From: Deltaproteobacteria bacterium
GTDB taxonomy: Bacteria; Bdellovibrionota; UBA2394
DNA: 64,000 bases
Direction of reading: 5' to 3'
Assembly (NCBI GenBank): GCA_017302715.1
Contig: JAFLCD010000004.1
Location: 124,001-188,000, forward strand
A program made the position numbers and the translations under genes. Under the pieces are notes generated by a model that had not been told where the DNA came from, ran no database searches, and worked only from the letters and a program-made list of their open reading frames with translations. Positions 36,965 through 64,000 of this stretch are shown here, piece by piece. Every line of letters begins with the position of its first letter. Position 1 is the first letter of the stretch.

Positions 36965-37017
36965 TATGAAAAAGAAGAAAAGGAGTTTTTAAAGGACTCC
37001 TTTTCTTCTTTTTCATA
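36965..37017. terminator. Bidirectional hairpin between convergent genes
   Basis: A perfect 22-bp stem (TATGAAAAAGAAG... paired with ...CTTCTTTTTCATA) and a nine-base loop, between the FtsB-like gene and the convergent kinase gene. The arm is nearly all purine on one strand. It can terminate in both directions. Confidence 0.8.
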
Positions 37018-61844: not shown

Positions 61845-62813
61845 ATGAACTTCATTTTAAGATTTGTTTTAACCGTAGCGTTTGTTTTGTCAGTGGGTGT
61901 TCAAGCCAAAGCAGGTGGTGTGTCGGATGGAGGAGGCGGAAGAGCAGAGCAAAATATCAGTTTTGCTTTTATGCACTTAAATCGATTTATCGAGCTTTGT
62001 CTTCAGTCCGAGACTTGTAAAATAACAGCAGCAGAAAAAAATATACTTCAATCGATTCAAAAATCTTTAGCTTCAGAGCAAAAAAATACTCACCCTCTCG
62101 TTTTTAAATCCGGTGACTCTAGTTTTTTTAGAATTGATGGCGATCTCAAAGTCGCTAAGACAGATTTTAAAATTGGAAGCCCAGTCTATTTTAATGTCGA
62201 TATGCTCTATATTAAAGCTGCCGATGGAAAAATTGTTGCTATGGATATTGCAGAAGCAGTGGGAATTCTCATTCATGAACTAGCTCATCATCAAGGAGAG
62301 AGAGATCATTCTCAACTTGATCTTTTAGCGGCAAAAGTTCGTCAAGCCGTTCAGGCTCGTATTCAACACTTGGATATGGGTAAATATCAATCAAGCATTC
62401 AGGTGGATGTGATTGACTGGAATGTTTCGAATGAAGCAGCCACTGATACGCAACTTATCATTTCAGATGCTTTGAAAACTCAGAATCTAAGTTCGTTGAT
62501 TCGAGATCAAATTTCATGCCCATTTAAAGGCTCTACTCTGAGTGGCTATTGGCTTTGGAATATTCATTGGAATCTGGGCGAAAGTTTCCCCAGTTTTGAT
62601 CAGCAGCGTTTATGGAAACAACCTCTTCGTGGTCGCTTAAATTATTATTGTAAAATTTCAAGCGGCGAAACAGTGGAGGTCGCGGGTAATGATATGGAAA
62701 TCTCGATTTATTTTTCAGAAGCGAAAGATGATCTTAAAAACTTAGAATTTTCGTCCAAAGCGCCAGAGGTAGAAGTCATTGATTGCCTTCAAAATCCTGG
62801 TCGTTGTCACTAA
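61845..62813 (+). CDS. Secreted protein with metzincin-like zinc motif
   Basis: A 322-residue exported protein: signal peptide (1-22, ending AKA) and then a Gly-rich GGVSDGGGG start. H144-E-L-A-H148, then HQG and D154, fits HExxHxxGxxD, the metzincin-type zinc signature, on a predicted helix (GILIHELAHHQGERDH). Four or more cysteines (LCLQSETC, QISCPF, NYYCK, DCLQNPGRC) could form disulfides. The C-terminal part is beta-rich. It is divergent from the TIGR02147 regulator. A protease function is likely but not proven; AAGGAG supports the start. Confidence 0.7.
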   Translation: MNFILRFVLTVAFVLSVGVQAKAGGVSDGGGGRAEQNISFAFMHLNRFIELCLQSETCKITAAEKNILQSIQKSLASEQKNTHPLVFKSGDSSFFRIDGDLKVAKTDFKIGSPVYFNVDMLYIKAADGKIVAMDIAEAVGILIHELAHHQGERDHSQLDLLAAKVRQAVQARIQHLDMGKYQSSIQVDVIDWNVSNEAATDTQLIISDALKTQNLSSLIRDQISCPFKGSTLSGYWLWNIHWNLGESFPSFDQQRLWKQPLRGRLNYYCKISSGETVEVAGNDMEISIYFSEAKDDLKNLEFSSKAPEVEVIDCLQNPGRCH

Positions 62814-62836: not shown

Positions 62837-62941
62837 AAAAACAGAAAGAAAGAGATCCTATAGTCTCTTTCTTTCTGTTTTTGGTTCCCTATCCGAAAAA
62901 CAAATTAATGAATGCTTCATCACAATTGGTCCCGGGACCAA
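62837..62941. repeat. Three-hairpin composite repeat, copy A (left of vapBC)
   Basis: First hairpin 62837-62882: perfect 19-bp stem, 5' arm purine-rich (AAAAACAGAAAGAAAGAGA), eight-base loop; it can terminate the upstream gene. Then GAAAAACAAATTA, a small ATGAA/TTCAT hairpin, and the 16-base perfect palindrome TTGGTCCCGGGACCAA (62926-62941). The same three parts in the same order recur at 63721-63822. Confidence 0.8.
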
Positions 62942-62963
62942 TTGTGAGTTCCTCATGCCCCAT

Positions 62964-62992
62964 TGACGGCTTTTCAGTCTTGCCTTACACTA
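62964..62992 (+). promoter_or_regulatory. Promoter of vapBC
   Basis: TTGACG (62964-62969) and TACACT (62987-62992) with 17-base spacing, 32 bases before the ATG of vapB. The -10 overlaps the inverted repeat CTTAC-N6-GTAAG at 62985-63000, a good place for the autoregulatory VapB/VapBC operator. AATACAT occurs twice just downstream. Confidence 0.6.
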
Positions 62993-63023
62993 AAGTAAGG
63001 AATACATAAAAAAGTAATACATT

Positions 63024-63263
63024 ATGTTGACGTCTAAAATTACAAGCAAAGGGCAGATCACTTTACCTCGCGCCATTCGAGATTTTCTAAAATTAGGTAC
63101 TGGCGATCGAGTAGATTTTGTTATTCGCGACAATGGAGAAGTTATTGTGCGACCCAAATCGGTGAGCGTTCAGAGCCTTCATGGAAGTATCGAGTATCAC
63201 GGAAAACCTATCTCTATAGAGAAAATGAACGAAGCTATTGCGCAATCGATTCGCCCAAAGTAG
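63024..63263 (+). CDS. vapB: VapB-type antitoxin (AbrB/MazE fold)
   Basis: A 79-residue DNA-binding antitoxin with an N-terminal swapped-hairpin AbrB domain: SKGQITLPRAIRDFLKLGTGDRVDFVI. The C-terminal 30 residues (HGKPISIEKMNEAIAQSI) would wrap the toxin. It lies eight bases upstream of the PIN toxin gene. It is autoregulated with the toxin through an operator overlapping the promoter (inferred from family behaviour and the repeat seen). Confidence 0.9.
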   Translation: MLTSKITSKGQITLPRAIRDFLKLGTGDRVDFVIRDNGEVIVRPKSVSVQSLHGSIEYHGKPISIEKMNEAIAQSIRPK

Positions 63264-63271
63264 GACGCTTT

Positions 63272-63667
63272 ATGATAGGGCTCGATACAAATATTTTAAT
63301 TCGATATCTGATCAACGACGATCCAAAGCAAGCAGCTGTCGCAAAAAAATTCATTGAAACCAAGGCACGCACCGAAAAGTTTTTTATCAACCATATAGTT
63401 CTCTGCGAACTTGTTTGGGTTTTGCTCGGATCTTATAAACTTTCTAAAAATCAGGTGCTCGATACTCTCGAAAAGATTCTTTCAACCGAAGAGTTTGAAG
63501 TCGAAAATAGTCAGCAGGCGTGGGAAGCGCTTTCAGATTACAGAGAAAGTGGCGCGGATTTTTCTGATTGTCTCATTGGTCGTATCAATCGTGCGGCTGG
63601 ATGCTCAACGAGCATTTCATTTGATAAATCCGTGAAGACTTTGAAGTCATTTGAAATATTGAGCTAG
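63272..63667 (+). CDS. vapC: VapC-type PIN-domain toxin ribonuclease
   Basis: A 131-residue PIN-domain endoribonuclease. Acidic active-site residues are visible: D5 (IGLDTN), the Glu of VLCELVW, the Asp pair of GADFSDCLIG and a late Asp (ISFDKSV). VapC toxins cut tRNA or rRNA when the antitoxin is degraded. The module lies between two copies of the composite repeat and is followed by the fourth copy of the 22-bp palindrome. Confidence 0.92.
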   Translation: MIGLDTNILIRYLINDDPKQAAVAKKFIETKARTEKFFINHIVLCELVWVLLGSYKLSKNQVLDTLEKILSTEEFEVENSQQAWEALSDYRESGADFSDCLIGRINRAAGCSTSISFDKSVKTLKSFEILS

Positions 63668-63674
63668 TCGAAGT

Positions 63675-63696
63675 TCAGCGTAAATCTTTGCGGTGA
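63675..63696. repeat. 22-bp palindromic element, copy 4 (diverged)
   Basis: TCAGCG-TAAATCTTTG-CGGTGA, eight bases after the vapC stop. It keeps the palindromic layout, with the terminal T/A pairs replaced by compensating TCA/TGA. Confidence 0.5.
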
Positions 63697-63720
63697 GTTT
63701 TTCTTCCTCATTAAGATTCA

Positions 63721-63822
63721 AAAAACAAAAAGAAAGAGACGTTTAGGATCTCTTTCTTTTTGTTTTTAATCTGCTTGAAAAACAAATTATGAATATTTTT
63801 TCATCTTTGGTCCCGGGACCAA
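63721..63822. repeat. Three-hairpin composite repeat, copy B (right of vapBC)
   Basis: Perfect 19-bp hairpin 63721-63767 (arm AAAAACAAAAAGAAAGAGA), then GAAAAACAAATTA, an ATGAA/TTCAT hairpin with a different loop, and TTGGTCCCGGGACCAA (63807-63822). It ends four bases before the stop of the convergent CCA-adding enzyme gene, so it can serve as a bidirectional terminator. Confidence 0.8.
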
Positions 63823-63825
63823 TTA

Positions 63826-64000
63826 TTAAGAAATTTTAAAATTCTTTTTCACGAAATTCAGCGCTAGCTCTCGTTCCGAAATTCTCGATTCAAGCTGCTC
63901 CGTCTCAACAGCATCTAAAATTTGCTTAAAAACGGGGCCGGGTTTGAAGCCTAAAGAAATTAAATCATGGCCTGTCACCAGAGGAGCTGGTTTCAAAATA
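63826..64000 (-). CDS. C-terminus of CCA-adding tRNA nucleotidyltransferase / poly(A) polymerase
   Basis: Partial gene entering from the right; 57 codons and the TAA stop (63828-63826) are visible. The peptide reads LVTGHDLISLGFKPGPVF, followed by KQILDAVETEQL, the typical end of the C-terminal helical domain of the CCA-adding/poly(A) polymerase superfamily (GxDLxxLGxxPGPxxGxxL). Which of the two enzymes it is cannot be told from this part. Confidence 0.75.
   Translation of the reverse strand, partial: ILKPAPLVTGHDLISLGFKPGPVFKQILDAVETEQLESRISERELALNFVKKNFKIS

Follow-up and report, generated by a model that had tools for sequence, protein, structure and literature searches.

A vapBC operon enclosed by two copies of a palindromic repeat probably linked to a multicopy family of HNH nucleases in Bdellovibrionota

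We have analysed a 64,000-nucleotide stretch of a Bdellovibrionota genome (hereafter the window; C14:124001-188000 of a 2.39-Mb assembly in 19 contigs) in which a vapBC toxin-antitoxin operon lies between two direct copies of a repeat. The explanation that, taken whole, best accounts for the data, to which we give a probability of about 0.6, is that this repeat is a solo, genome-specific palindromic site of a multicopy family of HNH-nuclease elements of Bdellovibrionota. The statistical link between the palindromes and the HNH genes is strong, and the data suggest an overlooked selfish system of nuclease plus palindrome in predatory-type bacteria, not an ordinary terminator. The features around the operon are as follows (window positions).

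61845..62813, forward strand: 322-aa secreted-type protein without Pfam match, left neighbour of the bracket
62837..62882, no strand: copy 1 purine/pyrimidine hairpin, bidirectional-terminator-like, 19-bp stem, 8-nt loop TCCTATAG
62895..62919, no strand: copy 1 spacer GAAAAACAAATTA and weak ATGAA/TTCAT inverted repeat, without hairpin in the minimum-energy fold
62920..62947, no strand: copy 1 palindrome TCACAATTGGTCCC-GGGACCAATTGTGA, 28 bp, perfect, with core TTGGTCCCGGGACCAA at 62926-62941; predicted nuclease site, TTGG type
62963..63001, forward strand: putative vapBC promoter (TTGACG, 17, TACACT), 9/12 consensus match, inside the bracket
63024..63263, forward strand: vapB, AbrB/MazE-type antitoxin, 79 aa (PF04014, E 2.4e-11)
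63272..63667, forward strand: vapC, PIN-domain ribonuclease toxin, 131 aa (PF01850, E 3.4e-11)
63721..63767, no strand: copy 2 purine/pyrimidine hairpin, perfect 19-bp stem, 9-nt loop CGTTTAGGA
63779..63806, no strand: copy 2 spacer GAAAAACAAATTA and ATGAA/TTCAT inverted repeat
63807..63822, no strand: copy 2 palindrome TTGGTCCC-GGGACCAA; predicted nuclease site, TTGG type
63826..64000, reverse strand: 3' end of a CCA tRNA nucleotidyltransferase-like gene (name inferred from sequence), right neighbour, continuing past the window

The two direct copies described in the initial annotation were confirmed at 62837-62941 (105 nt) and 63721-63822 (102 nt). Global alignment found 91 of 121 positions identical (75%) and scored 114, where shuffled sequences reached at most 17; for TTGGTCCCGGGACCAA at up to three mismatches the chance expectation is 0.10. 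Both purine/pyrimidine hairpins have the perfect 19-bp stems that had been described, and they fold strongly as RNA (copy 1, −26.8 kcal/mol, z −8.1; copy 2, −24.0 kcal/mol, z −6.2), while the common spacer GAAAAACAAATTA is indeed present in both copies. Other details of that description needed amendment. The hairpin loops do differ, as it had stated, with the correction that the two purine-hairpin loops are approximately reverse complements of each other; the ATGAA/TTCAT inverted repeats exist, but the middle hairpin they were said to form is weak and missing from the copy 1 minimum-energy fold; and the palindrome TTGGTCCCGGGACCAA is the same at 62926-62941 and 63807-63822, but that of copy 1 is longer than claimed. 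The outer arms TCACAA of this longer palindrome occur also in a palindrome inside the second HNH gene of the genome (C13:122770-122799). An Rfam scan of the window gave no match.

Between the copies sits a complete vapBC module (63024-63667), in agreement with the initial annotation, with vapB directly upstream of vapC on one strand at a gap of 8 nt, the full layout of a type II toxin-antitoxin system. The repeats, 881 bp apart, enclose the whole operon including its putative promoter, and this bracketing is a real duplication. The operon itself is a standard one, with an AbrB-type VapB and a PIN-domain VapC, and what is unusual is only that nuclease-linked palindromes enclose it. An inverted repeat, CCTTAC-ACTAAA-GTAAGG (62984-63001), overlaps the predicted −10 region and is, judging from its sequence and place, likely an autoregulatory vapBC operator. 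Since vapC has a single other match (32% identical) in 291 genomes of the phylum, with no close relative in the 290 other genomes, and since its relatives on plasmids are about 46% identical, vapBC was probably acquired horizontally, and to this extent the mobility proposed for the module in the initial annotation is supported. When the neighbourhood of the CCA gene was compared in relatives, its 3' side was not conserved, and for this reason a clean empty site without vapBC could not be shown.

A search of the whole 2.39 Mb for the palindrome core GTCCCGGGAC gave 15 occurrences, against one of a reversed control. The core comes in two versions, TTGGTCCC-GGGACCAA (GTGG...CCAC in one copy) and CCTGTCCC-GGGACAGG; among copies, the outer arms differ yet remain complementary. 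Most copies are solitary and adjoin unrelated housekeeping genes, without cargo; the neighbours, named by inspection, include acyl-CoA dehydrogenase/mutY, a TPR-type gene, rpiB/glyA, a methyltransferase and flagellar genes. The repeat is therefore not vapBC-specific, and the proposal that it belongs to this operon is not supported. Occurrence after many unrelated genes with no cassette pattern, which the initial annotation had named as the outcome that would speak against a cassette, is largely what was found for the palindrome, yet the sites cluster in pairs: five gaps between neighbours are 3.1 kb or less, against 0.31 expected, and the clusters enclose vapBC, the HNH gene C14:12670-13608 and, at C4:49694-52741, an ankyrin gene accompanied by a HigBA-type module. 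At this last locus (L035:2195-5242) two AGCCTGTCCCGGGACAGGCT palindromes stand around an ankyrin-repeat gene, a HigBA-type pair and a secreted-type gene of unknown kind, the left one lying within a TTGAGTTT/AAACTCAA stem. Elsewhere, two palindromes, one from each of the two versions, stand 45 bp apart beside an imperfect purine hairpin (C14:435-498, L033).

The recurrent partner of these palindromes is a nuclease gene. Two paralogs of one HNH family are encoded in the window's genome, HNH-1 at C14:12670-13608 and the TTGG-type HNH-2 at C13:122544-123494, and each holds one palindrome version within the gene at a homologous position (ACCTGTCCCGGGACAGGT in C14, TTCACAAGTGGTCCCGGGACCACTTGTGAA in C13). 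The C14 gene comes with three CCTGTCCCGGGACAGG-type palindromes, at its 3' end, internally and upstream (C14:12614-13826, L034:2115-3327), and its C-terminus SLSRDRLAL is palindrome-encoded. Similar purine hairpins occur on both of its sides, and the gene, as is the case with vapBC, is enclosed by hairpin-plus-palindrome units in one orientation.

This recurrence bears on the proposal, made in the initial annotation, that vapBC is itself mobile, a shufflable cassette swapped by recombination between its flanking repeats. The layout of hairpin and palindrome, gene, and again hairpin and palindrome does recur, at an HNH gene, but the repeat does not belong to vapBC. We regard this proposal as unlikely, though the best surviving of the alternatives: direct repeats enclosing operon and promoter, and the near absence of vapC from the rest of the phylum, are what it would predict, but neither a further vapBC nor any other cassette flanked by these TTGG brackets turned up, the TTGG sites are mostly without cargo, and the association of the repeat is with the HNH family.

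The HNH family is present in 124 of the 291 phylum genomes, often in several copies. A scan for named relatives returned only one genome, Bacteriovoracaceae bacterium UBA2394, and no HNH relative was found in phage or plasmid records. The absence of TTGGTCCCGGGACCAA from 58 other genomes first suggested a species-specific oddity, an idea that was dropped once the palindromes of other genomes were found. At HNH loci of other genera, collected by protein similarity only, different perfect palindromes occupy the same linker position or stand upstream or just downstream of the gene:

CTGTCGCGCGACAG, genome G059, twice
CCTGCCCCGGGGCAGG, genome G127
ACTCGCGCCGGCGCGAGT, genome G053
CTGTTCACGTGAACAG, genome G101
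GGAACTCTCCTCGAGGAGAGTTCC, genome G078
TGTGCCCGGGCACA, genome G001, twice
ACAGTTCTTAAGAACTGT, genome G042, adjoining three nuclease genes

Linker palindromes with arms of at least 7 were detected in 12 of 48 HNH genes (from nine genomes, some of them paralogs), against a mean of 0.4 and a maximum of 4 in 1000 rounds of codon shuffling; a perfect one is thus absent from about three quarters of the sampled genes. Bins from 150 to 900 nt downstream contained zero palindromes. Within a panel of ten genomes the sequences are private to their hosts, with eight copies of CAGTTCTTAAGAACTG in G042, four of CTGTTCACGTGAACAG in G101 and about 23 of CTCGCGCCGGCGCGAG in G053, and none of each in the other panel genomes. 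The CCTGTCCCGGGACAGG palindrome is found in four of the 291 genomes, all four with the HNH family, and G184 has two palindrome copies, each about 170 bp upstream of an HNH gene.

G002 has seven copies of an HNH unit of about 1.3 kb with inverted ends of about 95 bp, each end a bulged hairpin and not a loopless palindrome; these seven units (L081, L103-L108) are about 85% identical, and their bulged hairpins have one or the other of two interchangeable loops. Element copies of G053 are homologous from a terminal palindrome to the HNH stop codon. Many contigs of this genome (L146-L156) have a palindrome no more than a few hundred bases from their end, as would be expected if repeated HNH elements had broken the assembly, and its true copy number is probably above the count. 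A masked stretch (N) lies between two palindromes beside an HNH gene of G042 (L078:653-1171) and makes any cargo there unreadable.

These observations also weigh on a reading of the hairpins and palindromes as an intrinsic-terminator family, that is, as 3'-end RNA structures whose bracketing of vapBC would reflect two consecutive gene ends. The purine hairpins do fold strongly and sit after gene ends, and the palindromes are mostly intergenic and near 3' ends. The purine hairpin at 62837-62882 has the form expected of a terminator, a G+C-rich hairpin followed by a T-run, on one strand. The palindromes, however, have no T-run; their sequence varies between genomes while their form does not, and the window copies match far past the hairpin. 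Since the palindrome occupies a constant position within HNH coding sequence in many genera and lacks a T-run, a plain terminator is rejected for it, and the terminator module of the initial annotation gives way to a dispersed palindrome tied to the HNH nuclease family. Long purine hairpins are moreover rare, with seven in the 390 kb of the window's genome used for background counts. Five of these have a palindrome no more than about 110 bp away and a sixth lies a short way upstream of the C13 nuclease gene, which puts six of the seven beside a palindrome or HNH gene. The seventh, at window positions 36965-37017, has a 22-bp stem and is the sole one away from both. We consider a terminator family improbable as an account of the whole, even though transcription arriving from either side is probably terminated by the purine hairpin beside the palindrome. 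Palindromes gained independently where gene ends adjoin terminators could also have come to enclose vapBC, a point against our preferred explanation.

A similar, low likelihood attaches to the possibility that the palindromes are passive, MITE- or REP-like ends moved by another transposase such as Y1/RAYT, with the HNH genes as passengers inserting nearby. The solo palindromes do look like REPs, and RAYT genes are known to be flanked by their cognate REP repeats (PMC2817692). As in that system, a single-gene, selfish partner is flanked by palindromes that are also dispersed in its genome and whose sequence is specific to partner and genome. However, the recurrent partner with matching sequence is here an HNH nuclease with a ParB/Noc-like domain instead of a Y1 HUH tyrosine transposase, the palindromes are perfect and loopless, often with one copy inside the gene, and copy numbers range from 2 to about 23, not hundreds. 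No conserved GT(A/G)G head, the tetranucleotide of REPs, was common to the palindrome flanks in the window's genome. Because the partner is an HNH protein and REP heads are absent, we do not place the system within REP/RAYT.

The AlphaFold2 model of the HNH protein, a confident one (mean pLDDT 89.5), shows a helical N-terminal domain, a linker and a C-terminal HNH domain, which matches HNH domains such as that of McrA. PF01844 was detected in 31 of 32 family members, and the His-His and Asn columns are invariant. When the N-terminal domain alone was searched with Foldseek, the top 16 PDB matches were all ParB, Noc or Spo0J (probability 0.84-0.99), with non-significant E values of 0.08-0.7 and modest TM-scores of about 0.3-0.5. 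HTH_ParB matches appeared in five of 32 members and were weak (best E 3.1e-4), and no CTP-binding ParB N-terminal domain was found in Pfam and NCBIfam scans of the family. The modelled fold thus suggests a resemblance of the nuclease N-terminus to the ParB/Noc DNA-binding domain. Read outward from the dyad, half-sites carry G at position 1 in 12 of 13 cases and at position 3 in 12 of 13, and 11 of 13 begin with G-N-G. Variable residues are present in the recognition helix, in a sample too small to claim covariation with palindrome type.

Least probable among the alternatives is that the HNH protein serves in defence or in chromosome organisation, with the palindromes as its functional binding sites and vapBC bracketed by chance, since the predicted ParB/Noc-like domain, the NBS-like scatter of the sites and the presence of a site in the protein's own gene, comparable to the Bacillus parS located in spo0J, are set against palindromes whose copy number and sequence differ sharply among related genomes, HNH genes that are multicopy with inverted ends, and site pairs that cluster around mobile-type genes. 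ParB and Noc bind 16-bp palindromes similar in form to the HNH-linked ones, with parS being TGTTTCAC-GTGAAACA and NBS TATTTCCC-GGGAAATA (PMC7383237). The predicted DNA-binding fold, perfect palindromic sites of about 16 bp and half-sites beginning with G-N-G are common to the ParB-parS and Noc-NBS systems and the HNH family; the G101 palindrome CTGTTCACGTGAACAG shares TTCACGTGAA with parS, and the core TCCCGGGA of the window palindrome equals the NBS core. The HNH protein differs in being fused to a nuclease, without a detected CTPase domain, and in having many palindrome variants that are multicopy and mobile-looking.

Other systems resemble the HNH family in part. Palindromic elements of Rickettsia, which are longer, are likewise dispersed in intergenic and coding DNA; we know of no partner gene for them, whereas a partner nuclease is identified here. 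The REP13E12/DUF222-HNH repeats of mycobacteria, mentioned in PMC10589994, also consist of a repeated unit in which a helical domain at the N-terminus is combined with HNH at the C-terminus, but similarity to DUF222 is weak and sub-threshold in our family, with two of 32 members at E < 0.1 (highest score observed, L075, 21.6 bits against a gathering cut-off of 24.4). TasH of TIGR-Tas is an HNH nuclease of parasitic-type bacteria and phages with repeats nearby; it combines an N-terminal HNH with a Nop domain and uses arrays (PMC12045711). HNH is C-terminal in the family described here, and identity with TIGR-Tas was rejected, as domain scans and fold searches gave no Nop match in the family and no tandem array was present at L034 or L053.

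Taken together, the palindromes are most likely, by analogy, the cognate sites of the nuclease or the ends of its element, arranged as in REP/RAYT but with an unrelated protein, because they lie in or beside HNH genes, are dispersed and genome-specific, and accompany a protein with a predicted ParB/Noc-like helix-turn-helix domain at its N-terminus. A dimer of the nuclease would bind the palindrome through this domain and then nick or cut near it, and repair from another copy would spread the nuclease gene and solo sites, as in homing or REP/RAYT. In a weaker step, vapBC, once acquired horizontally, would have come to be enclosed through duplication of a hairpin-plus-palindrome site, either in the course of this cutting and repair or as sites recombined with each other. 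The bracketing may represent cargo capture at a duplicated site, the least certain step because the comparison of relatives yielded no clean empty site; movement of vapBC by the nuclease is a hypothesis only.

We searched the open-access literature and found no description of this pairing of HNH gene and palindrome. It is conceivable, at somewhat less than even odds, that these loci represent an undescribed class of selfish elements, in which a palindrome-binding HNH nuclease of ParB/Noc-like type, with a target in its own gene, seeds genome-specific palindromes, its domain and target co-diversify between lineages, and the sites can capture and move cargo such as toxin-antitoxin operons. To our knowledge, dispersed bacterial palindromes mostly have no known driver apart from RAYT transposases. 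If this class is real, a ParB/Noc-like HNH nuclease would be a second and unrelated driver; it would account for the genome-specific palindromes of this phylum and would provide many natural pairs of nuclease and palindrome, for which about a dozen predicted target sites are already available, including TTGGTCCCGGGACCAA, GTGGTCCCGGGACCAC, CCTGTCCCGGGACAGG and the palindromes of G101 and G042. If cargo capture is real as well, toxin-antitoxin operons would have a new way of becoming established in chromosomes.
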